In this document: positions 5,536 to 54,715 of the stretch, piece after piece
How positions within the stretch are numbered: position 1 is the first letter of the stretch
How the letters are laid out: the number at the start of each line of letters is the position of its first letter
Assembly: GCA_947625655.1 (NCBI GenBank)
Contig: CANQPD010000013.1
Coordinates: 1-64,000 of the forward strand
DNA: 64,000 nt
Source: an uncultured Dysosmobacter sp.
GTDB lineage: Bacteria > Bacillota > Clostridia > Oscillospirales > Oscillospiraceae
Direction of reading: 5' to 3'
Notes under the pieces: generated by a model
What the model was told of the DNA's origin: nothing
The model's database searches: none
What the model saw: only the letters and a program-made list of their open reading frames with translations
Translations under genes and position numbers: made by a program

Positions 5536-5582
5536 AATACCTCCCGCTCCATGGTATGGAGCGGGAGGCCGGTTTATGTGCC

Positions 5583-6827
5583 TTAAGCGCTGCCGGAGAG
5601 GGTATATCCGGTGAGATACCCCTTCCGCGGCTCCGCGCCGTGGCTCAGGGGATTGATGCGGACGCCGTTTTCCGTGATCTCAAAATGCAGATGCGGGCCG
5701 GTGGAGTTGCCGGTGGAGCCGGTGATGCCCAGCACCGCGCCCTGGGCCACGGTCTGGCCCACGGAAACCTTGATGCTGCTCATGTGGGCATACAGCGTGG
5801 TGTTGCCGCTGCCGTGGGCCACCACCACATAGTTGCCGTAGGAGCTGGAATACTGGGCCACGATGACAGTGCCCGCCTTGGCGGCGTAGACCGAGGAGGT
5901 ATAGCCCACCCGGCCGATGTCAGTGCCCTTGTGGTTGGTGGAGCCGATGCCGCCGGGGGAGGCCCGGCCGCCCACCGTGGAGGTGATATAGCGGCTGTCC
6001 ACCGGCCAGATATAGCCGCCGGGGTTGGACTGGGTGGAGCCGCCCTTGGCGGCCTGCTCCTGCTCCCACTGGCGGGTGAGGCGGGTGATCTCCGCCTGGA
6101 TGGCCTCGGCTTCGGCCTCCATATCGTCCAGGGCCGCCTCGGTGGCGTTCTCATTCTCCGCCAGCTCCTGGATCACCTTGTTGGCGGCGGCGCGCTGGTC
6201 GCTCAGTTCCTTCTTCCGGCTCACCAGCTCCGCTTTGGCGGTTTCCTCCTCCGCCTTGCTGGTCTCCAGGGCGTCTTTTTTCTCCGCGATCTCCACCTGC
6301 AGGGCCTGGAGATCGTCGATGACCTTCTGGTCGGAGTCCATGATCTCATTGATGATATCCAGGCGGCTCAGCAGATCCGTGAAGCTGTCCGCCTTGAACA
6401 GCACCGACCAGTAGGAGACGGTGCCCCGCTTTTCCATGGCCCGGACCCGCTGGCAGAACAGCTCGTACTGGGCCTCCTCCCGCGCTTCCGCGTCCGCCAG
6501 CTCCTCCTCCGTCTGGGTGATGAGGGCGGCGTACTGGGCGATCTGGGCCTCCACATTGGTGATCTGGGCGCTGGTGGTGGCGATCTGCTGGTCCAGGTTG
6601 GCCTTGCGGGCCATGGCCTGGCTCTTGTCGGCGGCCAGCTGGTCCAGCTTGGACTGCAGCTCCTTTTTCTGGCTGGCCAGCTCGCTGGACTCGCCCTTGA
6701 GCTTGTTGATATCGTCCCAGGTGACGGCCAGCGCCGGCGACAGCTCCGCCGCCGTCAGGGCAGCAACGCACAGCAGCGCCGCCAGCACCCGGAGGGCCCG
6801 GACAGGTCTCTTGTTCTTTCTCCTCAT
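5583..6827 (-). CDS. Murein hydrolase activator (EnvC-like coiled coil + M23 peptidase)
   Basis: Signal peptide, long coiled coil, C-terminal NHKGTDIG...GNYVVVAHGSGNTTLYAHMS...GSTGNSTGPHLHFEI. Confidence 0.95.
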   Translation of the reverse strand: MRRKNKRPVRALRVLAALLCVAALTAAELSPALAVTWDDINKLKGESSELASQKKELQSKLDQLAADKSQAMARKANLDQQIATTSAQITNVEAQIAQYAALITQTEEELADAEAREEAQYELFCQRVRAMEKRGTVSYWSVLFKADSFTDLLSRLDIINEIMDSDQKVIDDLQALQVEIAEKKDALETSKAEEETAKAELVSRKKELSDQRAAANKVIQELAENENATEAALDDMEAEAEAIQAEITRLTRQWEQEQAAKGGSTQSNPGGYIWPVDSRYITSTVGGRASPGGIGSTNHKGTDIGRVGYTSSVYAAKAGTVIVAQYSSSYGNYVVVAHGSGNTTLYAHMSSIKVSVGQTVAQGAVLGITGSTGNSTGPHLHFEITENGVRINPLSHGAEPRKGYLTGYTLSGSA

Positions 6828-6836
6828 GGCTCCTCC

Positions 6837-7724
6837 TTACACCTGCAGGAATTTCCGGATGGCGGACAGGCTGCCGCCCACGCCGATGACGATGCCCGCG
6901 GCGGCAAAGGAGCCCGCCACCACCGGCCAGAGCTTCTGGAAGGACACGATGTGGATCAGCTGCATCGTGTCGTTATTGCCCACGCCCCGGGCCACCGCCT
7001 CGTACAGCCCCCACTGCAGGAAAAAGCCGATGACCGCGCTCAAAAGCCCCAGCATGAAGCCCTCGTACACAAAGGGCCAGCGGATGAAGCCGTTGGTGGC
7101 GCCCACCATCCGCATAATGGCGATCTCGTCCCGGCGGTCGAAGGTGGTGAGCTTGATGGTGTTGGAGATAATGAAGACCGACACCACGAACAAAATGGCG
7201 ATCAGGGCCACGCACACCACCGTGGCCACGTTGCGGACGGTGATGAAGCCGCCGGCGATCTCCTCATGGGCGTTGACGTCGGAGATGCCCTCCAGGGCCC
7301 GCACCTGCTCCACCGTGTCCTTCTGCTGCTCCAGGTCCAGGATCTTGATGGCGTAGCGGTCCTCGAAGATCTCCGGGTCCAGGTCCTGGAACAGCTCCTC
7401 GTCGGGGTACTCGGCGGCGAAATTCTCCATAGCCTGCTGCTTGCTGATGTAGGTGGCGGAGGCCACGTTGGGCACCGCCTCCAGCTCTTTCTGCAGGGCC
7501 TTGGCCTGGGCGGCGGTGTAGCTGTCGTCCACATAGGCCAGGATCTCGTTTTCCCGCTCCAGGTCCGCCAGCAGCTCGTTGGCGTTCACCGCCACCAGGG
7601 TGAAGGTGCCCATGATCAGCAGGCAGGCCACCGTGATGCCGATGGCGGCAAAGGACATGAAGCCGTGGCTGAACATGTTGGAAAGGCCCTCATGGGCAAA
7701 ATATCCGAAATTGTGCTTAGCCAT
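6837..7724 (-). CDS. ftsX: Cell division protein FtsX
   Basis: FtsX-like permease, overlaps ftsE; MAKHNFGYFAHEGLSNMFSHGFMSFAAI. Confidence 0.95.
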   Translation of the reverse strand: MAKHNFGYFAHEGLSNMFSHGFMSFAAIGITVACLLIMGTFTLVAVNANELLADLERENEILAYVDDSYTAAQAKALQKELEAVPNVASATYISKQQAMENFAAEYPDEELFQDLDPEIFEDRYAIKILDLEQQKDTVEQVRALEGISDVNAHEEIAGGFITVRNVATVVCVALIAILFVVSVFIISNTIKLTTFDRRDEIAIMRMVGATNGFIRWPFVYEGFMLGLLSAVIGFFLQWGLYEAVARGVGNNDTMQLIHIVSFQKLWPVVAGSFAAAGIVIGVGGSLSAIRKFLQV

Positions 7725-8409
7725 GGATGTGCCCCCCCACATAGCCGCCCACGCTGTCGTTGATGACGTGGCCGGAGTCGATGGTGATGACCCGCTTGCC
7801 GAAGCGGTCCACCAGGTCCTTTTCATGGGTCACCACCACCACGGTGGTGCCCAGCGCGTTGATCTGCACCAGCAGGTCCATCAGCTCCAAAGACCGCTCC
7901 GGGTCCAGGTTGCCGGTGGGCTCGTCGGCGATGATGGTGTTGGGATTGTTGACCAGGGCCCGGGCGATGGCCACCCGCTGCTGCTCGCCGCCGGAGAGCT
8001 CCGTGGGATAGCTCTTCGCCTTGTCCTCCAGCCCCACCAGCTTCAGCACATAGGGGATGCGCTCCTGGATCTCCCTGGGCCGGGCCCCCACGGCCCGCAT
8101 GACGAAGGCCAGATTGTCATAGACCGTCTTCTTCTCGATCAGGCGGAAGTCCTGGAAGATGACGCCCAGGGTCCGGCGCATCAGGGGGATCTGCCGGCCG
8201 GAGATGTTGCTGACGGAAAAGCCGTTGATCATGATGCGGCCCCCGCAGGGCTCCACCTCTCCGGTCAGCAGCTTGATGATGGTGGACTTGCCGGAGCCGG
8301 AGGGGCCCACCAGGAAGACGAATTCCCCGTCCTCGATGGTCAGGGTGATGCCCCGGATGGCCCGGGTCCCGTTGTCGTACTCCATTTCCACGTCTTTCAA
8401 ACGGATCAT
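7717..8409 (-). CDS. ftsE: Cell division ATP-binding protein FtsE
   Basis: Walker A GPSGSGKST, signature LSGGEQQRVAIARAL, Walker B IIADEPTGNLDP. Confidence 0.96.
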   Translation of the reverse strand: MIRLKDVEMEYDNGTRAIRGITLTIEDGEFVFLVGPSGSGKSTIIKLLTGEVEPCGGRIMINGFSVSNISGRQIPLMRRTLGVIFQDFRLIEKKTVYDNLAFVMRAVGARPREIQERIPYVLKLVGLEDKAKSYPTELSGGEQQRVAIARALVNNPNTIIADEPTGNLDPERSLELMDLLVQINALGTTVVVVTHEKDLVDRFGKRVITIDSGHVINDSVGGYVGGHIHG

Positions 8410-8694
8410 GCGGCGTTTCGCTCCTCACTTTACGGAAATACCGGCCCCCGCGCCGGGGCGGAGGCCCCATATGGCGGTCAGGTCGACATAATTCTTGAAC
8501 GTATCACATTATAAACGGTTTTTCCCGCCAATGCAAGAACCCTTTGCAAGAATCCAGAACTTTCTGCAAACTACCGCGATAGTTTCCCTTTTTTGTCATA
8601 CTATCACAGTAGTGTGGCAATGTCAAGGGGGTGAAAAAAGCGGCAGACAAATGCCCGCCGCTGTGGTATACTGTTTTCAAGAGAGGGTGGTGGG

Positions 8695-9213
8695 ATGCTG
8701 GTCTATCTGCAGGTCATCGAAGAGCCGGAGGGCAAAAACAAGTTCCAGCGGCTCCACGACCGCTATCTGGGCCTGATGCTGCACACCGCCCGGAAGATCC
8801 TGGACAGCGAGCAGGACGCGGAGGACGCGGTGCAGGAGGCGTTTTACGCCATCGCGAAAAATATTTCAAAAATTTCTGACCCGGAGTGCATCAAAACGCG
8901 AAGCTACGTCGTTACTATAGTTGAGAACAAAGCCATCGACATCTACCGGGCCAGGCGGCGCAAGGCGGCGGAGCCCCTGAACGAGGACACCGCCGGGATC
9001 TCCTTCGGCGTGCCCGGCAACGCCGTGGCGGAGGCCATCGCCCGGCTGCCCGCCCGGTACAGGGAGTTCATCATCCTGAAATACGCCGAGGGCTACACCA
9101 ACGAGGAGCTGATGCACATGCTGGGACTGGGCTATTCCGGCGTCCGCAGTCTGGACGAGCGGGCGAAGAAGAAGCTGAAGGAACTGCTGGAAGAGGAGGG
9201 GATCGACGTATGA
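8695..9213 (+). CDS. ECF-like sigma-70 family RNA polymerase sigma factor
   Basis: DAEDAVQEAFYAIAKNI...RSYVVTIVENKAIDIYRARRRK...LPARYREFIILKYAEGYTNEELMHMLGL. Confidence 0.93.
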   Translation: MLVYLQVIEEPEGKNKFQRLHDRYLGLMLHTARKILDSEQDAEDAVQEAFYAIAKNISKISDPECIKTRSYVVTIVENKAIDIYRARRRKAAEPLNEDTAGISFGVPGNAVAEAIARLPARYREFIILKYAEGYTNEELMHMLGLGYSGVRSLDERAKKKLKELLEEEGIDV

Positions 9214-9878
9214 ACATTACGGACGAGATGCTGCGGCAGGCGGCGCCCCTGGCCCGGGACGCCATGCTGGCCTCCCTGCCGGAGCCGGAGGACTGCCCGG
9301 CGGACTGCTCCCCCCGGCTGCGGCGGCGGCTGGACCGCATGCTGCGCCGCCAGCGGCACCCGGCGCTCTACAGGACCGTGGGGCAGGCCGCGGCCTGCTT
9401 CCTGGCGGTGCTGGTGCTGGGGGGCGGCTGGCTGGCGGCGGACCAGGAGGCCCGGGCCAGCTTCTTCCAGTGGACGCGGCAGGTCTATGAGACCCAGATC
9501 GTCTACCGCTTCGCCGGCGAGGGCGCGAAGCACGGCGTGTACCGCGTGGGCTGGGTGCCGGAGGGGTATACGGTGTGGAAAATTTTAGATTCCTCTATCG
9601 GATATGTCAACGAAAACGATCAGTTGCTCTGGTTTTCTTACGGTTCTATGCAGGAAGGCTCCTCGCTCTATATTGTGGAAGCTGATCACGCCACCATGTA
9701 TCCCGTTGAGATCAACGGCATTCCCGGGGAATTTTATGTATATGATAACGACACCGCCAACGTCCTTGTGTGGCTGGACGAAACCAGCGGCATGTGCTTC
9801 TCAATCGGCGGCTTTCTGGATGAACCTGACATTTTGCACATGGCGGAGAGTATTTATTTGGAAGAATCTACAAAATAA
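9210..9878 (+). CDS. Anti-sigma-like membrane protein, DUF4367-type C-terminus
   Basis: ATGA overlap with sigma gene; single TM (AACFLAVLVLGGGWLA); extracellular GWVPEGYTV-type domain. Confidence 0.75.
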   Translation: MNITDEMLRQAAPLARDAMLASLPEPEDCPADCSPRLRRRLDRMLRRQRHPALYRTVGQAAACFLAVLVLGGGWLAADQEARASFFQWTRQVYETQIVYRFAGEGAKHGVYRVGWVPEGYTVWKILDSSIGYVNENDQLLWFSYGSMQEGSSLYIVEADHATMYPVEINGIPGEFYVYDNDTANVLVWLDETSGMCFSIGGFLDEPDILHMAESIYLEESTK

Positions 9879-9959
9879 AAAAATTTCAAAAACGCGCGCA
9901 TCAAATTCGCCTCCTTTCGTCGTTACTATAGACAGAACGCCGCAAAGGAGGTGATTTTC

Positions 9960-10322
9960 ATGAAAAGGCGTATCTGTATCCTGGCAGCGGTTTTCCTTCT
10001 GGTTCTCTCGGCAACCGCCGGAGCCGTGGAAACAAGAGAACTGACTCCCCGTCCCTCGCTGTCTTTCAGCGGCACCACGGCAACCTGCAAAGTTGATATC
10101 TTTGCAGAAGCCCCTTCTGCCAAAATCAGCGCCACGGTCAAGCTGTGGGACGGCGGCACCTGTCTCAAGACCTGGACGGATTCCGACACCGGTGTTTTGT
10201 CCTTCTCCGAGACCCACAGCAGGAACATCACGGCGGGCAAGTCCTACCAAATGACCGTGGACTACACCATCGCGGGCAAGTCCTATCCCCAGCTTTCCAC
10301 ATCCGCAGTTTGCCGAGGATAA
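9960..10322 (+). CDS. Small secreted protein, unknown function
   Basis: RBS AAAGGAGG, signal peptide MKRRICILAAVFLLVLSATAGA. Confidence 0.7.
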   Translation: MKRRICILAAVFLLVLSATAGAVETRELTPRPSLSFSGTTATCKVDIFAEAPSAKISATVKLWDGGTCLKTWTDSDTGVLSFSETHSRNITAGKSYQMTVDYTIAGKSYPQLSTSAVCRG

Positions 10323-29605: not shown

Positions 29606-31291
29606 TCAGCAGGGCTCCTCCGGCAGGAGACTGACGACGGTCTCAGTATGTGTATCGCTGTCCAAACCGATTTCCATATCTTCCTCTATGGTAGGAAGTT
29701 TGAGTTTCATGGACTTCAGCCACTGACCGTTTGGCTGCCGTTCCTCGAAGATACGAATTTCGGAAATCAGCGACTCCATAATATGTCGCCTTTCCAGTTC
29801 GTCCATGACAGAGTATAGCCTATCGAAGTAAATCAGCACCTTATAGATATTGTCAGCCGTCAGCTTCTCCGCTTCAATGGCTGTTTTCTTTGCTCTGGCT
29901 TCGATCAGGAGAGACTCCGCATCCTCGATCTTATCATACATCTTGTAGAGACGATCATCAAGGTCTGATTTGCGTTTGAGGTAGTGTTTATCGTCCGGGT
30001 CAAGCGAGTCGATCTCATCTATCAGCTTAGACTTGATGGAGTAGCTCTGACGGAGCTGTTTCTCGTAGTTGGCGATCTCCTGCTCGATAGCGGAGGTGTC
30101 CACCTTCATGCTGATCTTCTGCTGCATCAGCGCGGCGAACTTCGGATTGCTGACCAGCTTGGTGATAACCTCTGCCACAGCGGTATCCAGAAGTTCTTCA
30201 TTGATCTGCTTTTTGTAATTGCATTTATGACCACGGGTCATGGTGCGGTGCTTGCAGCCATAGTAGAAGAAATCCTTGTACTTCGTACCGTCTGCCTTGT
30301 GCTTGACACTCTTATTGCCATACATGCCTGCTCCGCAGATCGGACACTTTACGATTCCGGAGAGCAGATGGATTTTTGTATCTTTTCCACGGTTGACATG
30401 CTCGTATTTTTTTGCCTGTGCCAGCAGCTTCACCTGTGCGTCATGCCACAGATCTTCGGATACAATGGCTTCATGCTGACCATCCACCAGCAGGTAATCG
30501 TCTTGCTCTACAAGCCGGTAATCGTTTCTTGTACCATGCACTTTTTCTGTCCTGCGCCTGCCGTAGGCGATTTTGCCGCAGTATACGGGGTTTTTCAGTA
30601 TTCTGCGGATGAGGGCAGCGTCAAACAGCGGCCTCTTACCATTCTGGCGTTGGATTTTGTAAATGCCGTGGTTAGCAAGGTATCTGGCAAGACCGTTTGC
30701 ACCCATGTCGGTATGCACATACTGGTCGAAGATCACACGGATCGCTTCGGCTTCTTCCTCGTTGATAAACAGTTGGCCCTTTTCCAGCGTATAACCATAG
30801 GGAGCAAATCCGCCGTTCCATTTGCCCTCGCGGGCTTTCTGTATCCTGCCCTCCATGGTCTGCACACGGATGTTCTCACGTTCGATCTCTGCGACCGCTG
30901 ACAGGACGGAGATCATCAGTTTGCCTGCATCCTTGGAGGAATCAATGCCATCCTCAACGCAGATCAGATTGACACCGAAGTCCTGCATGACCTGTAAGGT
31001 GGACAGCACATCCGCCGCGTTTCTGCCGAAGCGGGAGAGCTTGAACACCAGCACATAGGAGACGCCATCCTTACCGGATCTGATATCCTCCATCATCTGA
31101 CTGAACTGTGCTCTGCCCTCAATGGACTTACCGGATTTGCCAGCGTCCTCATATTCCCCAACGATCTCATAGTCATTGTACTCGGCAAATGCTTTCATTC
31201 TGGCTTTCTGCGCATCCAGAGAGTATCCATCCACCTGTATCGTAGTGGAGACTCTTGTATAAGTATATACTTTTATTTTGTCTTTTTTCAT
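29606..31291 (-). CDS. Large serine recombinase (TnpX/TndX-like)
   Basis: YTRVSTTIQVDGYSLDAQ; recombinase domain; zinc ribbon CPICGAGMYG...C; coiled coil. Confidence 0.97.
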   Translation of the reverse strand: MKKDKIKVYTYTRVSTTIQVDGYSLDAQKARMKAFAEYNDYEIVGEYEDAGKSGKSIEGRAQFSQMMEDIRSGKDGVSYVLVFKLSRFGRNAADVLSTLQVMQDFGVNLICVEDGIDSSKDAGKLMISVLSAVAEIERENIRVQTMEGRIQKAREGKWNGGFAPYGYTLEKGQLFINEEEAEAIRVIFDQYVHTDMGANGLARYLANHGIYKIQRQNGKRPLFDAALIRRILKNPVYCGKIAYGRRRTEKVHGTRNDYRLVEQDDYLLVDGQHEAIVSEDLWHDAQVKLLAQAKKYEHVNRGKDTKIHLLSGIVKCPICGAGMYGNKSVKHKADGTKYKDFFYYGCKHRTMTRGHKCNYKKQINEELLDTAVAEVITKLVSNPKFAALMQQKISMKVDTSAIEQEIANYEKQLRQSYSIKSKLIDEIDSLDPDDKHYLKRKSDLDDRLYKMYDKIEDAESLLIEARAKKTAIEAEKLTADNIYKVLIYFDRLYSVMDELERRHIMESLISEIRIFEERQPNGQWLKSMKLKLPTIEEDMEIGLDSDTHTETVVSLLPEEPC

Positions 31292-31394
31292 ATCATCATC
31301 CTTATCCGTAATTTGTTCTACAGGTCGTAGTGCCTTATGTAACCCCTACTCCGAAATGATTTTCAGAGTAGGTTTGGACGAACATCACACGATG

Positions 31395-31423
31395 ATTATA
31401 TCACGCGATCTCCGTTTTATCAA
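31395..31423 (-). promoter_or_regulatory. Promoter for the serine recombinase gene
   Basis: Minus strand TTGATA-17 bp-TATAAT, ~100 bp upstream of the start codon. Confidence 0.65.
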
Positions 31424-31584
31424 CGCTGTTCTCGAAAAGTTTGGACTTATTTTTAATCTCTTTTTGGGCATCGTCCAAACAAATCGGCGGTTCTGGAAGA
31501 TTTTCGATATCCAGAACCGCCGCATACTTCTCTATTAAGTTCGCAAGTAAATCGGCAAAGCCGCTCCATTCATCTTTCTTTCGA

Positions 31585-31716
31585 TTATCTATAATGGTGT
31601 ACCTCCTGTTTTTTACTGCTGCGTTTAATGTACTTGCGGATGATTTTCAGTGACCGGTACAACAAGCGCACATTGCCAACTTCGGTTTCTGCATACAGTT
31701 CAAATTCATTTTTCAT
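31585..31716 (-). CDS. Small hypothetical element protein (43 aa)
   Basis: MKNEFELYAETEVGNVRLLYRSLKIIRKYIKRSSKKQEVHHYR read manually on minus strand. Confidence 0.45.
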   Translation of the reverse strand: MKNEFELYAETEVGNVRLLYRSLKIIRKYIKRSSKKQEVHHYR

Positions 31717-31765
31717 AAAAAATCCTTTCTCCCGAATCGTATCGGGCAACAAAAATAGCAGACCG

Positions 31766-33232
31766 TCACATCATGGTCTGCCGCTGTGTTTGTTCTGCCT
31801 GCTGTTCTTCGGCCCGCTGCTGTTCCTCGACTGATGACTTGTCTTGCGTGAGTACCATGGTCACGCCAGCCGCCAGGCCGATGACTGCGCCGATGTTTTT
31901 GGCTTCCTGCTCCGCCTGGATGCGGCGATACCGTTCCTCGGCATCTTCGTCACCATCATCCAACAACGCTCCAGTCGCCGCCAGACCATACAGTCCAGCG
32001 TGGAGTGTCTTTAGAGAAACAGGTTGCGGATGTTGCTGACCACTGTCGCTGTACCGTACCCCATCCCCAGCAGTGCTGCCACGATGAGCAGCACCAGCAC
32101 GATCCACTTGGTCACCACGATTAGGTCGAAGTCCGGAAGCCAGTCCAGCCATTTGCAGGTACGCTTTTCTTTCTTCTTCCCAGCCTGTTCCAGCAGAGCG
32201 GTCATCTCCGTCAACGATTTCTGCATCTCTGTCATGGAGTTCTGCACCGCTGTCAGGTCTGTGTGGGATCTCAGGTTCGGAAGATACTCCCGCATCCCAC
32301 GCGCTTCCCGACCGATGGATTCTGTCTTCTGTGTCAGTATCGTCAGCGCCTCCGGCAGCGGACACTGGATGACGATGGGTGTGATCGGCGCACTCTGCTC
32401 CTGCGGTGTGGGCGTGGGACGATTCCGTTCCATGAGCTGGTCCATCGATAATTTCTTCTCTGATCCTGAATTCATATTCCATATTCTCCTTCAGATATTT
32501 GTCACCGAACAGCAGGCGGTCACGGCACTGCCAGCCGCTGGGTGTGGTGTAGGTGATGTTCCGCCGGGACTCCTCCCAGCGCACCTTGTAGCCCTCGCTC
32601 TCCATCAGCGCAATGAACTCCTCGCGGTTGGAGGCGTGGCGCATACAATCGTTGATGATGTTCATGAGCTGCAGTTTCTTGCTCTGACCACGGGCTGCTG
32701 TGTGATATTCCCCGATGGTCATGGTCTTCGTTTTCTGCTTCTGCTCCCTGGGTTGAAACACAGGGAGCGAAAAATCCATGCAGACCTGGTCGTTGCGCTG
32801 CCGCAGTTCCTGTAGCTGCTCTTTGGCGATGTGCAGTTTTCGTCCGGTATCGAAGTTGACCGAGTTGATGAGCAGGTGCGAATGGATGTGCTCCCGGTCT
32901 GTGTGGGTACAGACCAGAACTTCGTAACCCTCGTAGTACTCGGCCAGCTTCAGCGCCGCCGCGTGCGCGGTGACCGGGCCGACCGCTTCGCCTTTCGGGA
33001 AGCTCTGCACCATGTGGTAGAACAGCACACCGTCCGTTTTGTGATAGAGCCGCTTGGTGGTCATGAAGTCAGCGTAGACAGATTCCGGCTGGCAGTTGAT
33101 GCCTGTGACCAACCGCTGACCATCGAACTCTGTTTTCTTGTCCTGCATGGTGTAGCGCATCACGGCGCCCATGCATCCGGTGGTCTGTCCCCGCTTGTAG
33201 TTGGTGAAGCTGATGATCGCCATAGTCACCAC
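31766..33232 (-). CDS. Relaxase/mobilization nuclease
   Basis: MAIISFTNYKRGQTTGCMGAVMRYTMQ...HTDREHIHSHLLINSVNFDTGRKLHI (HxDxxHxHxHxxxN relaxase motif). Confidence 0.93.
   Translation of the reverse strand: MVTMAIISFTNYKRGQTTGCMGAVMRYTMQDKKTEFDGQRLVTGINCQPESVYADFMTTKRLYHKTDGVLFYHMVQSFPKGEAVGPVTAHAAALKLAEYYEGYEVLVCTHTDREHIHSHLLINSVNFDTGRKLHIAKEQLQELRQRNDQVCMDFSLPVFQPREQKQKTKTMTIGEYHTAARGQSKKLQLMNIINDCMRHASNREEFIALMESEGYKVRWEESRRNITYTTPSGWQCRDRLLFGDKYLKENMEYEFRIREEIIDGPAHGTESSHAHTAGAECADHTHRHPVSAAGGADDTDTEDRIHRSGSAWDAGVSSEPEIPHRPDSGAELHDRDAEIVDGDDRSAGTGWEEERKAYLQMAGLASGLRPNRGDQVDRAGAAHRGSTAGDGVRYSDSGQQHPQPVSLKTLHAGLYGLAATGALLDDGDEDAEERYRRIQAEQEAKNIGAVIGLAAGVTMVLTQDKSSVEEQQRAEEQQAEQTQRQTMM
32011..32475 (-). 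CDS. Nested MobB-like membrane protein, out of frame inside the relaxase gene
   Basis: 154-aa ORF with start, coiled-coil region and C-terminal TM WIVLVLLIVAALLGMGYGTATVV, wholly inside 31766..33232. Confidence 0.7.
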   Translation of the reverse strand: MNSGSEKKLSMDQLMERNRPTPTPQEQSAPITPIVIQCPLPEALTILTQKTESIGREARGMREYLPNLRSHTDLTAVQNSMTEMQKSLTEMTALLEQAGKKKEKRTCKWLDWLPDFDLIVVTKWIVLVLLIVAALLGMGYGTATVVSNIRNLFL

Positions 33233-37414: not shown

Positions 37415-38008
37415 CTACTTCCCTGCTCTCTGTTTATCCCAGGAGCGCTCTGCCGCCAAATCGTCCCGAATAAGCCGCAGCAATTCCATCTCGCTTCTGA
37501 ATACACAAACACCGTCCTTGCCAGCGCGGTTGATCACACCCTGCATACTGCTGTGCTACCGAGTCAGGACTCTGATAAAATAGCTGGCCAGCTTTCCTTC
37601 TTTTACGCGGAGAGTATCCGGATTAAATGCCGGAGGCATCCGCTCTGCCATACTGCTTGTCAGATAATCTGCAAATTGTTCATCACCCATGGATGTGTGC
37701 TTCACTGTCGGCTCTTTTTTGAATGTAGTTCTCAACCGGGTATCACGCTGGCACTCTCCCGCACGATCCAAAATATCGTCGATTCCAAGCAGCATCTGGT
37801 CGAGACTTGAAAATTCCGTTTTGCTTTCAAAATAATAATTGTGAATCCAGCCTTGAGCCAAACCACATTCAAAGGCATCGACGCAGACCGTCATGGTATG
37901 GCTAAATTCCGGGTGGATACTGCCTGTTCGTGGCAGATCGTCCTCGGCAAAATATTTATTTTGCAGGATCTTTCGCATATCAATCACTTTCTGATCCACG
38001 CCGCACAC
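37415..38008 (-). pseudogene. Hypothetical element gene interrupted by an in-frame TAG
   Basis: 150-aa ORF ends ...FIRVLTR-TAG; same frame continues HSSMQGVINRAGKDGVCVFRSEMELLRLIRDDLAAERSWDKQRAGK to next stop at 37415. Confidence 0.5.
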
Positions 38009-38139: not shown

Positions 38140-41100
38140 TTACTTGACCAAGTAACGATACAGGAAGGTCACGATCTGGCTACGCAGGCAGGGATCATCG
38201 GGACTGAAGGTAGTTGCACTGGTACCAGCGGTAATACCCTCATCGGCTGCCCACAGCACTGCGTCGTGATAATACATATCAGCGGCGACGTCAGTGAAGG
38301 GGTTCACAGCCTCAACGGCAGAAGACTCAGCCCAGCGCCACAGGAAAGTGACGTTCTGTGCGCGGGTCACGGTTGCGTTGGGGCTAAAGGTTGTGGCAGA
38401 GGTACCAGAAGTAATGCCGTTCTCGACTGCCCACAGGACAGCATCGTAATAATACTTGTCGGGGGTGACGTCGGTGAAGGGACAAACCGTGGTCTCGGGC
38501 TCAGGGCTGCCAGCAGCGCGCCACAGGAAGGTCACGGTCTGGGCGCGGGTGCAGGTCACAGCGGGACTGAAGGTAGTGGCGGAAGTGCCGCCGGTGATAC
38601 CATTTTCAGCTGCCCACAGCACTGCGTCGTAATAGTAGGCACCCTCAGCCACATCGGTAAAGGGATTCTCAAACGCCTCGATCTCAGCGAAGGTAGCCTC
38701 AATGGTGACCTTGCCGGAAGGCATCTTGAAGGTGTACTTGCTGTCGGACTTGCGGGTCAGCTTGATTTCCTTGCCGTTCTTATCCAGAACGGTCAGCTCA
38801 TCCAGTTCGTAGCCGCTGTCAGGATCGACAGTGATGGTCACGGTAGAACCAGAGGATGCACGGGAGGGAGACACGGTGATGTCACCATTCTCGGTGTCCT
38901 CAACAGTAATGGTGTATCTGGTAGAACCACCGCCACCGCCGCCACCGGAGCTGTTTCTGCTCCACTTGGCGTAGACCGTAGTGTCCTTAGTGATGGGTGC
39001 AGAGAAGTCGAATACGGTGGTCAGGGCCTCGTCACTGTACCAATTCACAAAGGTATAGCCACTCTTAGTGGGAGCGGTAGCAGGTCTGGTAGCCGGCTTT
39101 CCGCTTACGACTTCCTGCGCATCAACGGAAGATCCACCGTCGGTATCAAAGGTAACGGTGAAAGTCAAATCAAACAGTTCGATGTACTCCGCCTTTTCCT
39201 CATCGTTCAGGAAGCAGCCATTGGGGTCTACGTAGGTATCCGTCAAGACTCCGTCCGCATAGACTTCGATCTTTGTGGGTACGTTCTTGCGGGTCAAGTC
39301 CACAACCCACGCCGTCTCCCAAGAGCCAGACGCTTCACCAGTGATCACATTGTTCACGGTGCATTCATCGTACGTTGCGGGATACAGAGGCTCACTGGTG
39401 TCTCCATCCTCGTATTCACGCAGGGTAGTGGTGCCCAGCAGAGTCTCACCGGAGTAAATCTTCAGAACCAGGGATTCGCTGGCATACACATTTTTCAGCG
39501 TCGTGGTGATGGACTCACGAGACTTACTGTTATCGATAATAGTCTGGAAACCATGATCGATTTCTGCCTTGCCTTTCGGCCAAACTTTTTCACCGCCTAC
39601 AGTGACCGTCAGGTTGGTCTGATCCTTCTTATCATTCCACAGTTCATTACCGCTGACAGAGCCCTGATCAAAGCCAGTGGCGATGGTATCGGCATCGATG
39701 ACGATATTCGTGCCCTCAGGCATGAGGCTCGTGTCAATTTCGATGGCGGCCTTGCCCTTAACAGCAGAGGTTGCAATGAAATCGGTGTCAGTCACGGTCA
39801 GGTCGGTGGCACCGGCGCCCTCGTTGTAGACCAGGACGGACCTGCCAACGCTGTTGAAGGTACACTCGTTGAACTTAACAGCCTTTGCACCATAGGTCCA
39901 GACGTTGTAGGCGTCAGCGCTGTTCTGGTTGAAGGTACAGTTGTTGAAGGTTTCGCTGGTGCCATACAGGAACACCTGGCCGTTGAAGGTGCAGTAGTTG
40001 TAGACCATGGTACCGGCGTGCTGCAGGCCGGTATAATTGGCATTGGGATAGTATTCGAAGGTTACATTGTTGAAGGTGACATCCGCACCACCCATGTTCG
40101 TTGAGCCGATGTTGTTGAAAACAACGCCGGGCACGCTACCGGTGATAGTCAGGTCCTTGCCGGTGGGGACAGTATAAGTGCCAGCCTGCAGGATAACAAC
40201 CGTATCACCGTCCTTAGCGGCGTTGACAGCAGCCTCCAGAGTTTTATGCTTCACCCCGTTGACACTGGCGACCATCTTAACACCAGCATCCGCCCCTACA
40301 TAGTACAACTGATTGCTGCTCTGATAGGAATAATATCCTTCAGCCAGATATTGCTCGGGATCCTGATCGAATCCGCCGCCGGCGACGGTCAGAGTTCCCG
40401 TGCTGAGCAGAGTGTCGTTCTTGCCACCTGAGAAAGTGCCGCCGGTGATGACAACGGAGGAATTCTCCTGCACACGCACGGCCGAGCCGCTATCGTTGAC
40501 CGTCAGGCCCTTGGGACCGGTGAAAGTGCCGGCCTGAATGATCACAAAGCCGCCATCGGAAACATTGACGGCATGGGTGGTCATCCCCGCAGATTCAGAA
40601 ACCTTGTACTCGCCGCCATCCACAGTGACATCCACCTCGCCGTCCACACGCAGAGCGTGGCGGGCGCTGGTCACATTCACGTCAGTCAGAGTCAGGGCAC
40701 CGGCATTGATCTCAACGCCGCTGACATTGGAATCTTCATTGACGATGGAGCCGTTCTTGATCTCGAACTCGCCGCTCGTGATCAGGAAGGAGCCGGTGAG
40801 GGTGTTATTGTTCAGGTTAATAGTCGCCGCACCATCCTCAATCTCAACGACCTCAATCGCATCGTTCAGCAGAGTGACAACATCGCCGGCTTCCGCGGCG
40901 GCAATGGCGGCAGACAGGGTGCCGTACTTCACACCGTTCACTTCCGCAACCAGAGGCCACTTCTTCTCCTTATCCACGATCAGGGTTCCGCTGGTGCTGT
41001 CCGTATCGTCAGAGGTTTCGTAGGCTGCACCGATCAAACCATTGTTGGGAAGGGTCACGTCTGCGTTGGGGGTGGAAACAGTGCCCCCCTCGGCGGAACA

Positions 41101-44085
41101 CCCGTTGAAGGTCACGGAATAGCCAGCTTCGTTATGCCACACACCGGCGATCAGGCCGGTTTCCAGAGCGGCCTCCGGGTCGGAGCTGGTGTTGGTCACA
41201 TTGCCGGAGCAGGCAATATTCTCAAACTTGTTGCCGTAGTGGGCAATACCAAAGACGCCGCCAACATCGCAGACATCACCGATGACATCAATGTTAGAGT
41301 CGATGTTCTTGAATGTATGGCTTCCTTCACCATTAAAGCCAACTACGCCACCGACATAAGTGCGGTATGCAGTGCCGCTCTCGGTAGAGGTTGCCTTCAC
41401 GTAGGACGTATCGTCCACGTCTACAATAATATCCGTCCAGTTGGCATAAGCGTTCTTGCCGCCCACGCCGCCAACATAGGCCATGCCGTTGACTTCCACA
41501 TGGCCGGTCACTTTGATGTTGGTGTACTCGCTGGTATAGGGAGTGCCAGCCACAACGCCAACATTCAAGCGGCCGGAAACCTTTGCATTATCGATCGTCA
41601 GGTTCCCGATCGTGCCATTGTTGGTGCGACCAAAGAAGCCCTGATCATTACTGGAACCGCCGTTAACGACCAGATTGCTGATCGTATTATTATTGCCATT
41701 GAAATTTCCATTGAACGGGCTTTCCGTGGTACCAATAGGTGTCCACGCCTCTCCAGCAAGGTCAATATTGGCCTTTAGTTCAACGTATTTATTGGAATAA
41801 TTGTTCCCGTTATTGACATTGTCTCGGAAATTCTTCAACTCTTCCAGCGTGCTGATAACATAGGGATTAGATTCTGTGCCTTCACCGATCAACTTTTTGG
41901 CAAAGGTGACCGTGCCATCGCTGTTCTTCGTAGCTTCCATTGCCACACCATCAGCGATGCTGACGTCTGTGGCGCTGACGGAGCTGGTGCCATCAACAGA
42001 AATAGAAGGCTGAGCGCCAGTCAGAATATTGAAGTCGCGAACACCCTTGATTGCAGAGCCATTCTGCAGGGTCAGAATCGCCTGATCGTCGATCTGGAAA
42101 GAGTTTTGACCATCGCTAGTGCCGGTCACGGTGATGGTCGAGTTGTCCAGCGTCACATCCATGGGAGGATACTTCGTATCCGCATCCTCCTCCTCGGTGT
42201 CATAGGAGGGCTTCAGCAGGAAGTAGCCGCACTCCACATTGGCGTCCTCAGCATAGAAGGTGCCGGAGTAAGCGCCAATATAGTAGGCACAGTCGAACTC
42301 CACAGTGGATTCATCGTCGTCGCCATAGATGTACAGACCAGAAGCCTCGTTCTCGTTGTAGCGCAGGATGGTGGTACCAGAGACCTTGATGCTGCCTCCA
42401 TTCTGAACGGTGGTCTTGGCATCGTAGCCGTGGTAGAAGACTTCTTCAACTTCCAGAGTTCCCTCAACGGCATTCACGCCGTCGGTTTCATAGAAGAAGT
42501 TGCCAGCCTTCATAGTCACACCATTGCCGATATTCAGATCATTGGCGTAGACGTATTTGTCATAGGTGCTGGTAATCGTGACACCGCCAATGACGTTGGT
42601 TGTCAGGGTGCAGCCGTTCATCACTGCGATGGACTCAGTTACATCCCGCAGGACGTTGACCTTGCGGCCATTGAAGTTGCCCATGGCGTCGGCAAGGGTC
42701 GTATAAGCCTTCACGCCGCCGGTATTGCCTTCAGCCAGAGCTACGATCTTATTCAAGTTGTCCGGGGCATTGAAGTAAACATTATTTGTGGCAACGGTCG
42801 TACCGTCTACAACCAGCTTGACCGCATCCGGATTCATATCATACTTAGGATAACCGGAAGCCCATTCGACATCCCAGTTGTCGCTATCCACACCATCGAA
42901 GGGGATGGACCAGGTCACGTAGACGTCGCCGTTGATAATGTTGTCCTTGTTGATCAGAGAAGAGGATGCAATCTTTGTGCTGCCCTCATACAGCTCAACT
43001 ACAAAGCTCTCAGTGGCGTTGGCGGTACCCTCGCCCCAGAACTTAGTTTCTTCCGTGTAGGCAGGAGTGACGGTTCCCTTGGGTGCCGCCTTGATCGAGG
43101 TCACACCACCGGTAACAGCGACAGACTGAGGAGCGCTCTCGGTACCAGTCACAACATAGCTATTGACCTTTGCAGTAGTTGTCGAACCGTCAGCGATCAC
43201 GGTGCATTCGCTCAGGGTAGAAGCGGCATCAACCGTCAGCGTATTGTCGGTCTTGAAGCGAATGTCTGCCTCTCCGTTGCCCGAGAGATTCAAAGTAGAA
43301 TTCTCGACAGAAACATCATAATCAGTCACAGTCAACGCACGGCCGGCGCCGCCGGTGATCGTGATATCAGAGTCCTTCACGGTCAGCTTGGAGCCGTTGA
43401 TGCCATTGTCGCCGCCGGTGATAGTTAAATCAACATCATCCAGAACGACCGTCGCACCGGCAATACCGCGCTCGACATCTGCGAACTGCATGGTGGTGCC
43501 GGTGATATTAACATTGCCGGAATCGCCAGCGCCGCTCTCATTTTTGATAACGCCACCAGCAGTGCTCTGGTCATCGGAAAGGTTCCACTCGCCACCCTTG
43601 ACGTTCAGCGTGCCGTTGCCATAGACCATAAGCACCGCAAATGCGGAGCTATAATCAGAACCGGTCAGGTTAACATCTTCAAGGGTCAAAGTCGCATCAG
43701 CATTGCGATCGCCGATGCCCATGATGCAGTCGCCGCTCGCAGTCACATCAGTGATGTCGATGGTGCCGTTCTTGACGACCACATTACCTTTGAAGTAATT
43801 GCCGCCAGCACCGACCGTCAGCTTATTGCCACCGAGGTCGATGGTGACATCGGTAACTGTAAAAGCCTCATCCGCCGTAACATTCTCCTTGATGATGATT
43901 TGGTCACCAACAGTAGCTTGAGACAACACTTCATCAAAGGTGTAGAAATCAGCACTGTCCGCACCGTCCAGATCATTGCCATCAGCCGTGACATTAAAGT
44001 CTGCAGCCAAAGCAGTGGCCGGAAGCATGGAGAGCAGCATTGCAAATGTCACAAGCATCGACAATACTTTTTTCTTCATAATCAT
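38140..44085 (-). CDS. 1981-aa cell-surface protein: signal peptide, beta-helix repeats, GLUG motif, InlB-type repeat, Gly linker, three SLH domains
   Basis: MKKKVLSMLVTFAMLLSMLPATALA; NLTIDNAKVSGRLNVGVVAG; VTFDTDGGSSVDAQ...YTFVNWYSDEALTTVFDF; FTDVAEGAYYYDAVLWAAENGITGGTSATTFSP x3. Confidence 0.95.
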   Translation of the reverse strand: MIMKKKVLSMLVTFAMLLSMLPATALAADFNVTADGNDLDGADSADFYTFDEVLSQATVGDQIIIKENVTADEAFTVTDVTIDLGGNKLTVGAGGNYFKGNVVVKNGTIDITDVTASGDCIMGIGDRNADATLTLEDVNLTGSDYSSAFAVLMVYGNGTLNVKGGEWNLSDDQSTAGGVIKNESGAGDSGNVNITGTTMQFADVERGIAGATVVLDDVDLTITGGDNGINGSKLTVKDSDITITGGAGRALTVTDYDVSVENSTLNLSGNGEADIRFKTDNTLTVDAASTLSECTVIADGSTTTAKVNSYVVTGTESAPQSVAVTGGVTSIKAAPKGTVTPAYTEETKFWGEGTANATESFVVELYEGSTKIASSSLINKDNIINGDVYVTWSIPFDGVDSDNWDVEWASGYPKYDMNPDAVKLVVDGTTVATNNVYFNAPDNLNKIVALAEGNTGGVKAYTTLADAMGNFNGRKVNVLRDVTESIAVMNGCTLTTNVIGGVTITSTYDKYVYANDLNIGNGVTMKAGNFFYETDGVNAVEGTLEVEEVFYHGYDAKTTVQNGGSIKVSGTTILRYNENEASGLYIYGDDDESTVEFDCAYYIGAYSGTFYAEDANVECGYFLLKPSYDTEEEDADTKYPPMDVTLDNSTITVTGTSDGQNSFQIDDQAILTLQNGSAIKGVRDFNILTGAQPSISVDGTSSVSATDVSIADGVAMEATKNSDGTVTFAKKLIGEGTESNPYVISTLEELKNFRDNVNNGNNYSNKYVELKANIDLAGEAWTPIGTTESPFNGNFNGNNNTISNLVVNGGSSNDQGFFGRTNNGTIGNLTIDNAKVSGRLNVGVVAGTPYTSEYTNIKVTGHVEVNGMAYVGGVGGKNAYANWTDIIVDVDDTSYVKATSTESGTAYRTYVGGVVGFNGEGSHTFKNIDSNIDVIGDVCDVGGVFGIAHYGNKFENIACSGNVTNTSSDPEAALETGLIAGVWHNEAGYSVTFNGCSAEGGTVSTPNADVTLPNNGLIGAAYETSDDTDSTSGTLIVDKEKKWPLVAEVNGVKYGTLSAAIAAAEAGDVVTLLNDAIEVVEIEDGAATINLNNNTLTGSFLITSGEFEIKNGSIVNEDSNVSGVEINAGALTLTDVNVTSARHALRVDGEVDVTVDGGEYKVSESAGMTTHAVNVSDGGFVIIQAGTFTGPKGLTVNDSGSAVRVQENSSVVITGGTFSGGKNDTLLSTGTLTVAGGGFDQDPEQYLAEGYYSYQSSNQLYYVGADAGVKMVASVNGVKHKTLEAAVNAAKDGDTVVILQAGTYTVPTGKDLTITGSVPGVVFNNIGSTNMGGADVTFNNVTFEYYPNANYTGLQHAGTMVYNYCTFNGQVFLYGTSETFNNCTFNQNSADAYNVWTYGAKAVKFNECTFNSVGRSVLVYNEGAGATDLTVTDTDFIATSAVKGKAAIEIDTSLMPEGTNIVIDADTIATGFDQGSVSGNELWNDKKDQTNLTVTVGGEKVWPKGKAEIDHGFQTIIDNSKSRESITTTLKNVYASESLVLKIYSGETLLGTTTLREYEDGDTSEPLYPATYDECTVNNVITGEASGSWETAWVVDLTRKNVPTKIEVYADGVLTDTYVDPNGCFLNDEEKAEYIELFDLTFTVTFDTDGGSSVDAQEVVSGKPATRPATAPTKSGYTFVNWYSDEALTTVFDFSAPITKDTTVYAKWSRNSSGGGGGGGSTRYTITVEDTENGDITVSPSRASSGSTVTITVDPDSGYELDELTVLDKNGKEIKLTRKSDSKYTFKMPSGKVTIEATFAEIEAFENPFTDVAEGAYYYDAVLWAAENGITGGTSATTFSPAVTCTRAQTVTFLWRAAGSPEPETTVCPFTDVTPDKYYYDAVLWAVENGITSGTSATTFSPNATVTRAQNVTFLWRWAESSAVEAVNPFTDVAADMYYHDAVLWAADEGITAGTSATTFSPDDPCLRSQIVTFLYRYLVK

Positions 44086-44158: not shown

Positions 44159-44203
44159 ATGCTCTCTCAGAAAAGAGAGCATGGCAATGGACTGTCCATT
44201 GCC
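44159..44203 (-). promoter_or_regulatory. Two adjacent hairpins in the leader of the SLH protein gene
   Basis: atgctctctcagaaaagagagcat (44159-44182) and ggcaatggactgtccattgcc (44183-44203). Confidence 0.55.
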
Positions 44204-44242: not shown

Positions 44243-44503
44243 TTACTCAATCTGCCGGTCACAAAGTTTTCGCATCAGCGCTGCGCGAGCCTCTTCCGCC
44301 GTCAGCTCTGCCGAACCATGCACTATGTATTGCAGAGCATCGTTCCACTCCTTGAGCGGGTAAACATCCGCTGATACATCGTCCAAGACATGAACTGCTT
44401 TCATTTTCCCCAGCCCGTCCAGCCCGGGCAGATCGCTGATATAGGTGCAGCCCACCTTGTAAGATATGTATTCCACCAACGACAACAGTTGAGTTGTACT
44501 CAT
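44243..44503 (-). CDS. 86-aa hypothetical protein between recombinase switch and surface protein gene
   Basis: RBS AGGAGG, ATG start; MSTTQLLSLVEYISYKVGCTYISDLPGLDGLG... Confidence 0.65.
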   Translation of the reverse strand: MSTTQLLSLVEYISYKVGCTYISDLPGLDGLGKMKAVHVLDDVSADVYPLKEWNDALQYIVHGSAELTAEEARAALMRKLCDRQIE

Positions 44504-44564: not shown

Positions 44565-44705
44565 GAGCACAAAGGTACACCTTAATGCTCGCGTGGGTAT
44601 TGCTTTTTGGGGACGGGTTATGTATAGTGATAAGTGTGAAATTGCACCAACAAGGCGCAAATCAAGGTCTCCACAGTGAGAGCATTAAGGTGTACTTTTC
44701 TGCTC
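44565..44705. promoter_or_regulatory. Putative invertible DNA segment bounded by 26-bp inverted serine-recombinase sites
   Basis: Left 44565-44590 GAGCACAAAGGT-AC-ACCTTAATGCTC; right 44680-44705 (reverse complement) GAGCAGAAAAGT-AC-ACCTTAATGCTC; 24/26 identical, inverted, 89-bp spacer. Confidence 0.75.
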
Positions 44706-44712
44706 AAAATTT

Positions 44713-45318
44713 TCAAACCTGCGTGCTGGCCCATTTGGTAAAGGTATGTTGAGCCACCCCGAGCATTCTGGCTGCACCCCTGCCAGATACCTCACCACGT
44801 TTCCATAGGTTATACACCGGGGTGAAATCCTCCGGTATTTCCATGGGCGCTCTCCCCATGTGAACGCCTCTGGCTTTTGCGGCGGCGATCCCTTCCGCCT
44901 GCCGTTGACGGATGAATTCTCGTTCTGTCTGCGCTACATAGCTCAGAAGCTGGAGCACAATGTCCGCGATGAGCGTTCCGGTGAGATCTCGCCCCTGCCG
45001 GGTGTCCAGCAACGGCATATCCAGAACCACGATGGCTGCTTTCTTTTCTCTGGTGATGATGCGCCACTGCTCCAGTATTTCTTCATAGTTGCGTCCCAGC
45101 CGGTCGATGCTCTTGATGACAAGGGTGTCGCCCGGTTTTAGTTTTCTGACGAGTTTTTTATAATTGGGGCGCTCAAAATCTTTGCCGGACTGCTTGTCCA
45201 TGTAGAGGTCACGGTCCGCAATGCCGAATTCATGCATGGCCACCCGCTGACGGTCTTCGTTCTGTTCTTTCGTAGATACACGGATGTATCCATAGAGTTT
45301 TCCTGTGTTTTCGTTCAT
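44713..45318 (-). CDS. Small serine recombinase (resolvase/invertase family)
   Basis: LYGYIRVSTKEQNEDRQRVAM, DTLVIKSIDRLGRNYEEI, C-terminal HTH GEVSGRGAARMLGVAQHTFTKWA. Confidence 0.95.
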   Translation of the reverse strand: MNENTGKLYGYIRVSTKEQNEDRQRVAMHEFGIADRDLYMDKQSGKDFERPNYKKLVRKLKPGDTLVIKSIDRLGRNYEEILEQWRIITREKKAAIVVLDMPLLDTRQGRDLTGTLIADIVLQLLSYVAQTEREFIRQRQAEGIAAAKARGVHMGRAPMEIPEDFTPVYNLWKRGEVSGRGAARMLGVAQHTFTKWASTQV

Positions 45319-51648: not shown

Positions 51649-52993
51649 TTAAATTGTACGATCAAGAACGGTGACTTGTGTAATCACATCACGCAGACGA
51701 TCAGAGCCAACCATATATTCCAGTACATCATCAGCGGTCTCAAAGCACCTAGTGGAGGACGGTTGATCCCAAATGTAAATATTTATTTTTCCCATGGCAT
51801 GAGATATTCCATATTTTCGGTCATCCCAAACAAATTCAATCTCTGCACCGCGCTTCATACTCCACTTAAAATCACTAATAGTCTTAAATCGATTTTCCTC
51901 TGGCGCACTAGTATCATAGATTATAGATGGCATGAGTTTCCTCCAAATAAAACATTTCAAGAAGTCAGAGCCGATTCCATTGATAGGATCACTCCAGCTG
52001 GGAAATCCGGTCATAGGATCATATGTAATGATATGCCCATGCGGATTATGATGAATGTTGCCATTTCCGTGTGTGGAGTAATGGATTTCCTTGATTGCTT
52101 TCCCATCGTCACCGATCAAGGTCTCTGTTTTTTCTCCGCGTTTGGAATAGGCGACTTTAATTTCGCCCGGCGTGCCGCTTAAACGGCTATCTTTTGCTTG
52201 GGTGGGCCGCCATTTTCCGCCGTATGCGCTGCCGCCGCCTTTTCCGATCAGGTATGCCTCTATTGTATCACAAGATTTGCGGTATGCGCCATCAATTTTG
52301 AATGCCTCCAGATTTTCTTTCTGAAAGCTCCGTTCATAGCTCATGTATTTCCATGAACTGCGCTCATAATCCACATATACGATGTCTCCCTGCATTTCAG
52401 GAAACGGCGTGTTGTAACAAATGATCTTCTCCGGCTCAATCCGCCGCAGCATCTCATTGTAGCCAGCCATGAACCACTCTTTCTGGTCGCGGCTATTATC
52501 ATGTTCGGATGCCATATAGGTGGAGACAGCAACAACGCTACCTTTTTCAATCCCCTCAAAGCAAAAATCGAACGTGGATTCATCGCCCCAGTTTACCGTG
52601 GGAATGACACGGATTCCTTTGCTGGCCCAGTAAGCGCCGCACCAGCGGTTGCGGAACACGTTGTAAAGCTGCATAACTGGGGCCATCTCCAAATACATAC
52701 TGAAATCAGGGGGACAGTACCGCCCGATAGCGAGACAACTTCTCAATATCGCTGTCAGGATTCTTCCATACCCGCTCAAAACGGTAGTCATAGAGGAAAA
52801 AGTGCACCATGCGGTCAAGGTGATTTTGATCCTCCAGATGGGTTTTGTCGAATCCGATGAGCAGAAGATCGTCAAAGTCACCAGATTTTTCCTGAAACTT
52901 TGGAATTATGGGAATTTGCAGTTTTCCTTTGCCGGGAAACTGGTTGTGGAGCAGGGATTGGCTGGTACGGTAATTGTAATGTTCTTCGGTCAT
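51649..52993 (-). pseudogene. DUF4417-type protein, second copy, frameshifted
   Basis: N-terminal part (to ...AVLSP) and C-terminal part (DFSMYLEM...) in different frames; C5 tract at 52709-52713 where in-frame reading needs C4. Confidence 0.8.
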
Positions 52994-53223: not shown

Positions 53224-54573
53224 TCAAATTGTACGATCCAAAACTGTAACACGTGTAATCACATCACGCAAGCGGTCTGAACCAACCATATACTCCAACG
53301 CATCATCAGCGGTGTCAAAGCAGCATTCCGTTTCAGGATGATTCCAAACATAGATTGTGATTTTATCATCTGTCCCATATCGGATAATGCCATAATGAAT
53401 GCCGTTCCATTCGATTTCTACTTCTCCACCACATTTCATGCACCACTTGAAATCGCTGATCGATTTAAAGCGGTTATCTTCCAATGAGTTTTGGGATTTT
53501 AAAATGTGATAGGACATGTCACACCTCCAATATGACTTGAAATCAGGAATATCTCCATCCCAATAGTTTTCTGCTTTACCCCAGTTTGGTCGGTTTCCTT
53601 CCCATGAAATCCTATGGTCGTGAGGAATAGAATGTTGTTTGGGACTGCCATGATCTGAATAGTGCCGCTCCTTGACTGCCCTTCCGTCTGCACCGATCAT
53701 AGTTTCTCTTAAATTCCCGCTACGATCTGTTGTGCGGTTGATGCTGCCAGGTTCACCTATAAAACGTCCATCATCCGGCTTAGAAGGTTTCCATTCTCCG
53801 CCATAGGCACTACCGCCGCCCTTGCCAATGAGGTACGGCTCTATTGTATCACGATTATTACTGTATGTGCCGCCAATTTTAAAGGCATCCAAATCTTCAC
53901 GATGGAAACTACGTTCATAGTTCATATACCGCCAGGAACTGCGTTCGTAATCCACATAGATAATGTTGCCCTGCATTTCGGGAAACGGTGTATTGTAGCA
54001 AATGATTTTTTCCGGCTCAATGCGCCGCAGCATCTCGTTGTATCCAGCCATGAACCACTCTTTTTGATCCTGGCGGTTGTCGTGTTCGGACGCCATGTAG
54101 GTGGAGACAGCCACCACACTGCCTTTTTCGATCCCGTCAAAGCAGAAATCGAACGTGGATTTATCGCCCCAGTTGACGGTGGGAATGACCCGGAGCCCTT
54201 TGGATGCCCAGTAAGCGCCGCACCAACGATTACGAAATACATTGTAAAGCTGCATGACAGGCGCCATTTCCAGGTACATACTGAAATCCGGCGACAGCAC
54301 TGCACGGTACCGGGACAGTTTTTCAATGTCGTTGTCTGGGTTCTTCCAGACCCGCTCGAAGCGATAGTCATATAGGAAGAAGTGTACCATGCGGTCGAGG
54401 TGATTCTGGTCCTCCAGGTGGGTTTTGTCAAAACCGATCAACAAAAGATCATCAAAATCTCCGGGCCTTTCTTGGAACTTAGGAATGATGGGGATTTTTA
54501 ACTTTCCTTTGCCGGGAAACTGGTTGCGAAGCAGCGTCTGACTCGTTCGGTAGTTGTAGTTTTCTTCGGTCAT
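53224..54573 (-). CDS. DUF4417-type protein, intact copy
   Basis: Full-length paralogue of 51649..52993; IPIIPKFQERPGDFDDLLLIGFDKTH...VIPTVNWGDKSTFDFCFDGIEKGSVVAVST. Confidence 0.8.
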   Translation of the reverse strand: MTEENYNYRTSQTLLRNQFPGKGKLKIPIIPKFQERPGDFDDLLLIGFDKTHLEDQNHLDRMVHFFLYDYRFERVWKNPDNDIEKLSRYRAVLSPDFSMYLEMAPVMQLYNVFRNRWCGAYWASKGLRVIPTVNWGDKSTFDFCFDGIEKGSVVAVSTYMASEHDNRQDQKEWFMAGYNEMLRRIEPEKIICYNTPFPEMQGNIIYVDYERSSWRYMNYERSFHREDLDAFKIGGTYSNNRDTIEPYLIGKGGGSAYGGEWKPSKPDDGRFIGEPGSINRTTDRSGNLRETMIGADGRAVKERHYSDHGSPKQHSIPHDHRISWEGNRPNWGKAENYWDGDIPDFKSYWRCDMSYHILKSQNSLEDNRFKSISDFKWCMKCGGEVEIEWNGIHYGIIRYGTDDKITIYVWNHPETECCFDTADDALEYMVGSDRLRDVITRVTVLDRTI

Positions 54574-54715
54574 ATGGAACCTCCTGTATGTAGTAAGGAA
54601 CAAGTCCTTCTACATACAGGCTCCCAAACAACGAAAGTTGCGCATTTCTGTGCGACGACATGAGAAATTTTACAAATTGGTAATAAAAATCGGAGCATCC
54701 CGAAGGACACTCCGA

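Follow-up and report, generated by a model that had tools for sequence, protein, structure and literature searches.

The window, a stretch of 64,000 nucleotides from an uncultured Dysosmobacter sp., contains a small serine recombinase gene whose stop codon is separated by 7 bp from an inverted repeat, with a small open reading frame and a gene for a very large surface protein beyond it, all on the minus strand. A sequence-only reading had proposed that the repeat delimits a DNA-inversion switch for the surface protein. The locus comprises the following features:

37556..38008, minus strand: 150-aa protein, probably the last gene of the unit; look-alikes in L207 and L218 (resemblance by eye)
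38140..44085, minus strand: probable target, a secreted SLH protein of 1981 aa with three SLH domains and Flg_new and Flg_new_2 repeats
44159..44203, minus strand: two tandem RNA hairpins (9 + 10 pairs, no T run) between the 86-aa ORF and the SLH gene
44243..44503, minus strand: 86-aa protein of an unnamed family with the motif GCxYLSDL, first gene behind the putative switch
44565..44590, plus strand: putative distal crossover site, 24/26 inverted match to the proximal site; fits the family half-site matrix
44591..44679, no strand: inner part of the predicted invertible segment, 89 bp; related loci hold homologous segments in opposite orientations
44600..44628, plus strand: promoter-like TTGCTT-17-TATAGT, score 9.5, pointing at the recombinase gene
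44680..44705, minus strand: putative recombinase-proximal crossover site, 24/26 inverted match; fits the family half-site matrix
44713..45318, minus strand: serine recombinase (invertase), 201 aa; PF00239 with E 8e-31; PHROG_125

The site pair and its recombinase

The 26-bp inverted repeat described earlier around the spacer was confirmed with 24/26 matching positions, and 12 Markov-1 shuffles of the window yielded no pair of this quality. In the 64-kb window it is the sole inverted pair of at least 24/26 at an outer span of 82-301 bp, barring its own one-base shift, and the arms match at 25/27 positions once they are lengthened to 44564 and 44706. The distal core is AC (44577-44578) and the proximal core reads GT on the plus strand (44692-44693; AC in gene direction), giving a core-to-core distance of 115 bp, about 10.9 helical turns. 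The half-sites facing the segment are identical, both GAGCATTAAGGT; the outer half-sites are unlike each other. The gene order also proved to be as claimed: the recombinase (44713..45318, minus strand), the 86-aa ORF with AGGAGG and an ATG at 44503, and the 1981-aa SLH protein. A second copy of the site pair was not found in the 3.15-Mb assembly, and an exact-site search showed that the arm sequence, the centre excepted, is not conserved in relatives. Searching viral contigs for exact half-sites gave a single match, within an unrelated coding gene (L295), and the plasmid search returned only short recombinase matches with 70-79% identity.

The resolvase N-terminal domain (PF00239) covers residues 9-152 of the 201-aa recombinase, and together with a short C-terminal DNA-binding part this is the make-up of a small serine recombinase. 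The protein matches PHROG_125 'DNA invertase' (E 2.5e-52), resembles gamma-delta resolvase over residues 8-193, and has a serine, Ser15, that aligns with the Ser of the RVS motif. Its nearest solved structures are Sin and gamma-delta resolvase, with the DNA-invertase entries 4m6f and 3uj3 lower, and thus Hin and Gin are not its nearest relatives among solved structures. The top NCBIfam match is the Mpi model (NF009949, E 1e-15); its score of 57.6 bits is far below the family cut-off of 272. The gene is intact and all residues invariant among relatives are kept (the alignment rows are the locus sequences). Judged by its sequence, the protein is a small serine recombinase without close kinship to Hin, Gin or Mpi. 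The Hin/Gin-family geometry assigned to the locus earlier holds for the inverted 26-bp sites and the 2-bp core; for the rest it is an analogy only, the recombinase being closer to Sin and gamma-delta resolvase.

The sequence-only reading had also placed the switch on a mobilizable element, and here support was lacking. A large serine recombinase and a MobA relaxase are encoded at 29606-33232 (minus strand) and probably belong to an integrative mobilizable element. Nothing links the switch to these genes at 29.6-33.2 kb, and no boundaries of an element spanning 38-45 kb were detected. Beside the switch lies a methyltransferase gene (45.7-47.4 kb) whose neighbours vary among relatives; with these differences and no boundary, insertion of the switch locus as part of a mobile element is not supported. 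Further along the window, two adjoining DUF4417 genes (51649-52881 and 53224-54603, minus strand) apparently represent a tandem duplication. The Pfam scan of the window included several long plus-strand ORFs that are probably shadows of opposite-strand genes, and their non-matches are uninformative.

Paired sites and flipped segments in related loci

Homologues of the recombinase were gathered from genomes and viral contigs. In a motif-free search for inverted repeats, the pairs downstream of the recombinase were better than those on its upstream side, and from the best pairs a half-site matrix was derived (consensus TACAAAAAAGT, adjoining the 2-bp core). With this matrix, 63 of 68 first-set loci passed the threshold downstream, compared to 5 of 171 stretches taken upstream and 1 of 121 taken at a distance, where the 68 are the loci with any scorable pair and the other two denominators are of a different kind. 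In an independent set, obtained by two further genome searches, a pair was present downstream in 26 of 47 loci and upstream in 1 of 46. Altogether, 80 related recombinases have two sites just downstream. Some relatives have no downstream pair, among them the closest one, L034, with an 89% identical recombinase.

The arm sequences differ between genomes and the arrangement recurs in many of them. This argues against a chance or terminator-like inverted repeat and against the ends of a small mobile element, readings that draw on the fact that inverted repeats are common beside recombinase genes. Furthermore, shuffled windows held no such pair, and a terminator scan was negative at the repeat, whose loop would be 89 bp long. 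We therefore give these readings hardly any credence.

Without a core bonus in the scoring, the two cores were identical in inverted sense in 77 of 80 pairs, compared to a mean of 24 and a maximum of 36 for shuffled partners. Among the non-palindromic cores (n=66), 63 match in inverted and 0 in direct sense. The AC/GT cores of the window, non-palindromic and inverted as had been proposed, thus follow the pattern of the relatives. In some pairs the core is AT, a palindrome that by itself could not set the orientation. Since strand exchange needs identical overlaps, the matched cores point to strand exchange rather than to operator binding.

Presence of the spacer in one orientation only across genomes had been named as an observation that would speak against a switch; related loci show both orientations, while among the genomes searched, one per species, the window's own segment occurred in the deposited orientation only. 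L006 and L012 have colinear recombinase genes with 85% DNA identity, but their segments align only as reverse complements, with a score of 82 compared to 19 in direct orientation and a shuffle maximum of 31. Likewise, the segment of L006 matches that of L057 as reverse complement (61 versus 16 direct), with weaker reverse-complement matches to L010 and L049. A promoter read by eye, TTGCAA-17-TGnTAAAAT, faces downstream in L006 and backward in L012. L058 and L077 have TTGACA-17-TGATACAAT in common, 21 bp from a core and in opposite orientations; their weak direct segment alignment is compatible with opposite promoter orientation. When all segment pairs were compared, the shuffle maximum was exceeded by 23 pairs in the same and by 9 in opposite orientation; since most of the 9 barely exceed it, the solid cases are L006 versus L012 and L057.

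Segment promoters and helical phasing

Promoters scoring at least 11 were found in 37 of 60 family segments and in 4 of 247 control stretches, in line with the earlier suggestion of a switch that carries promoter-like elements and is placed to control the SLH gene. In 16 of the 37 strong promoters the -35 element starts 20-22 bp from a core, and in a second group the -10 element ends 37-39 bp from the other core. The best promoter is aimed at the recombinase in 44 and away from it in 12 of the 60 segments; in the independent set the numbers are 18 and 4. At the window locus, the plus-strand -35 element (TTGCTT at 44600) begins 21 bp from the core, which is the position seen in one large group of switches with strong promoters, with a lower score (9.5) and a rank of 0.1 among shuffles. 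The window promoter is thus weak. On the minus strand the best candidate, TTGGTG-18-TATACA, scores just 3.9. Weak elements had been suggested on both strands; the one on the plus strand looks real and the one on the minus strand does not. Because the only promoter that looks real is aimed at the recombinase, the deposited orientation is probably OFF for the SLH gene, a call that is approximate since the promoter matrix was set from general knowledge. Transcription in the OFF state would enter the recombinase gene in antisense; as a speculation, this might lower recombinase levels and stabilise the OFF state.

A decayed switch, locked OFF in this strain, would account for the weak promoter, the arms matching at 24/26 positions and the closest relative lacking a site pair. 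We consider such a relic improbable, as the recombinase is intact with its invariant residues, the cores match, the inner half-sites are identical and the spacing is in phase.

The core-to-core distances in the family cluster at 93-95, 105, 114-117, 125-128, 134-139 and 146-149 bp, with gaps between. These distances are best described by a period of 10.55 bp (R 0.75; p<=2e-4 compared to a smoothed null, with relatedness among loci inflating the significance to some extent), which also holds in representatives with less than 70% identity (p=6e-4). When the core was not rewarded, 77 pairs gave an R of 0.74, and the independent set gave R 0.84 and a V-test u of 5.8 with the phase fixed beforehand. 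Since the distances approximate multiples of 10.55 (94.9, 105.5, 116.1, 126.6, 137.2, 147.7), the cores lie on the same side of the helix. Segments with a promoter at a fixed distance from one core vary by whole turns at the other side, with 105, 127, 137, 148 and 169 bp. Presumably, both recombinase dimers have to face into the small loop to form the tetramer. The promoter inverton is a known kind of switch; the whole-turn spacing goes beyond the sequence-only reading, and a literature search of limited reach retrieved no report of helical phasing between two inverton sites.

Whole-turn spacing is also typical of repression loops, and a promoter lies between the two sites, as expected if they were operators that the recombinase binds and loops together so as to repress transcription, strand exchange being slight or absent. 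This reading would leave unexplained why homologous segments occur in both orientations and why cores vary among loci yet agree within a pair, in inverted sense only; we regard it as quite improbable.

At the family level, sequence comparison established paired inverted sites, identical cores, segment promoters, both orientations and whole-turn spacing. For the window itself, inversion, its catalysis by the adjacent enzyme, the operon structure, the geometry of the loop and a surface phenotype are inferences. The original proposal of an inversion switch with its own serine recombinase agrees with the recurrent architecture, the paired cores, the segment promoters, the flipped homologous segments and the helical phasing, and the locus is very probably a promoter inverton; the family pattern strongly suggests that its segment would invert in this organism as well. 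The adjacent recombinase would bind the two 26-bp sites, which would be drawn together on a very tight DNA loop with 115 bp between the cores; the enzyme would then cut at the 2-bp core, rotate and rejoin the ends, leaving the segment inverted. As deposited, the single segment promoter would read toward the recombinase gene, whereas once inverted it would drive transcription of the 86-aa ORF, of the gene for the 1981-aa SLH protein and probably of the 150-aa gene.

Genes behind the switches and comparison with known systems

The 86-aa protein matches no Pfam, NCBIfam or PHROG family; a Pfam hit to Ntox1 (E 0.16) was below the cut-off and was discarded. Its predicted fold consists of five helices (pLDDT 85) and has no match in the PDB, so the fold gives no function. 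The intergenic stretch between the 86-aa ORF and the SLH gene has a fold z-score of -4.25, and its tandem hairpins belong to no Rfam family. Homologues of the 86-aa protein are encoded behind the recombinase in several loci, and a search with an alignment of homologues detected members in 40 of the 400 genomes from the bacterial family. Of the small-protein loci, 34 were examined: about seven of these lie downstream of a serine recombinase (including one fragment and one locus known via the recombinase search and missed by the context search) and five downstream of a tyrosine recombinase; the seed sequences came from serine-recombinase loci, so that only the tyrosine association is unbiased. 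In four of the five tyrosine loci an inverted repeat of 18-21 bp, perfect in three, lies between recombinase and small ORF. Thus, the family also occurs behind putative tyrosine-recombinase switches, a further addition to the earlier reading. Most other members have no recombinase within reach, and the family is therefore not tied to switches.

One of the tyrosine loci, L211 (G000:C1:368000-383950, 4672-10044), is a second probable switch in the same genome. It contains a tyrosine recombinase and a perfect 21-bp inverted repeat with 229 bp between the repeats, followed by a paralogue of the 86-aa protein and surface proteins, one with SLH domains; its segment carries a strong promoter in OFF orientation. 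Another tyrosine-recombinase switch, L196 (1143-1454 in recombinase-first orientation), carries the site three times, twice on the distal side, so that alternative inversions or a deletion would be possible.

SLH proteins also lie behind recombinases of the window's serine type in L217 and L218, where they measure 1758 or 1679 aa. Look-alikes of the 150-aa protein, recognised by eye, adjoin the small protein in L207 and L218. The family switches are followed by genes for surface proteins of the SLH, SpaA and LRR_5 types, by NRPS genes and by genes for Eco57I-type methylases and for helicases, and the predicted control of an SLH protein in the window is one of several uses of such switches. L022, L088, L098 and L066 have two-gene units behind the same kind of switch, probably those with matches to a helicase and a restriction-modification methylase, which suggests phase-variable defence.

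We think it possible, with considerable doubt, that mini-invertons of this class are widespread in Clostridia and that their two sites must lie 9 to 14 whole turns apart, so that a planar loop by itself would select the productive synapse and no separate enhancer would be needed; the first gene would encode a new small helical protein, common to tyrosine switches, that reports or stabilises the ON state. If the spacing rule has a physical basis, the distance between the sites may by itself take the place of the Hin/Gin enhancer; this would account for the inversion of such short segments and would make for compact, designable switches. With the rule, such switches could also be recognised in individual assemblies, even where read data are lacking. 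The small protein behind two unrelated recombinase classes hints at a common step in the phase variation of surface proteins in gut Clostridia.

Hin and Gin (hix and gix sites, Fis enhancer) likewise combine a small serine recombinase with two inverted 26-bp sites and a 2-bp core, and Hin also inverts a promoter. In contrast to these systems, the segment here is about ten times shorter, the recombinase is encoded outside it, its sequence is nearer to Sin and gamma-delta resolvase, and the sites are spaced by whole turns. The 89-bp segment leaves little room for a Fis-bound recombinational enhancer, and we know of no Fis in these bacteria. The fimS element of Escherichia coli is a short promoter inverton right behind a recombinase gene; unlike the enzyme here, FimE is a tyrosine recombinase, and the fimS segment measures about 300 bp. 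The invertible promoters of Bacteroides resemble the present locus in that a serine recombinase acts on promoter invertons governing surface structures. Mpi, however, is a master invertase of at least 13 regions (PMC5903667), whereas here a dedicated enzyme abuts a single switch. In Clostridioides difficile the cwpV and flg switches depend on RecV, a recombinase of the tyrosine type (PMC2784873, PMC5903667); cwpV is alike in being a phase-variable large cell-wall protein in a clostridium, but RecV belongs to the other recombinase class and serves several switches. Inverton groups linked to tyrosine recombinases have been described for Clostridia, including gut Clostridia with a recombinase nearby; in the accessible part of that source, the most significant named Clostridia group is of the tyrosine type and a serine group like the present one is not named (PMC11892184). 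The tyrosine groups resemble the second probable switch of this genome, L211.
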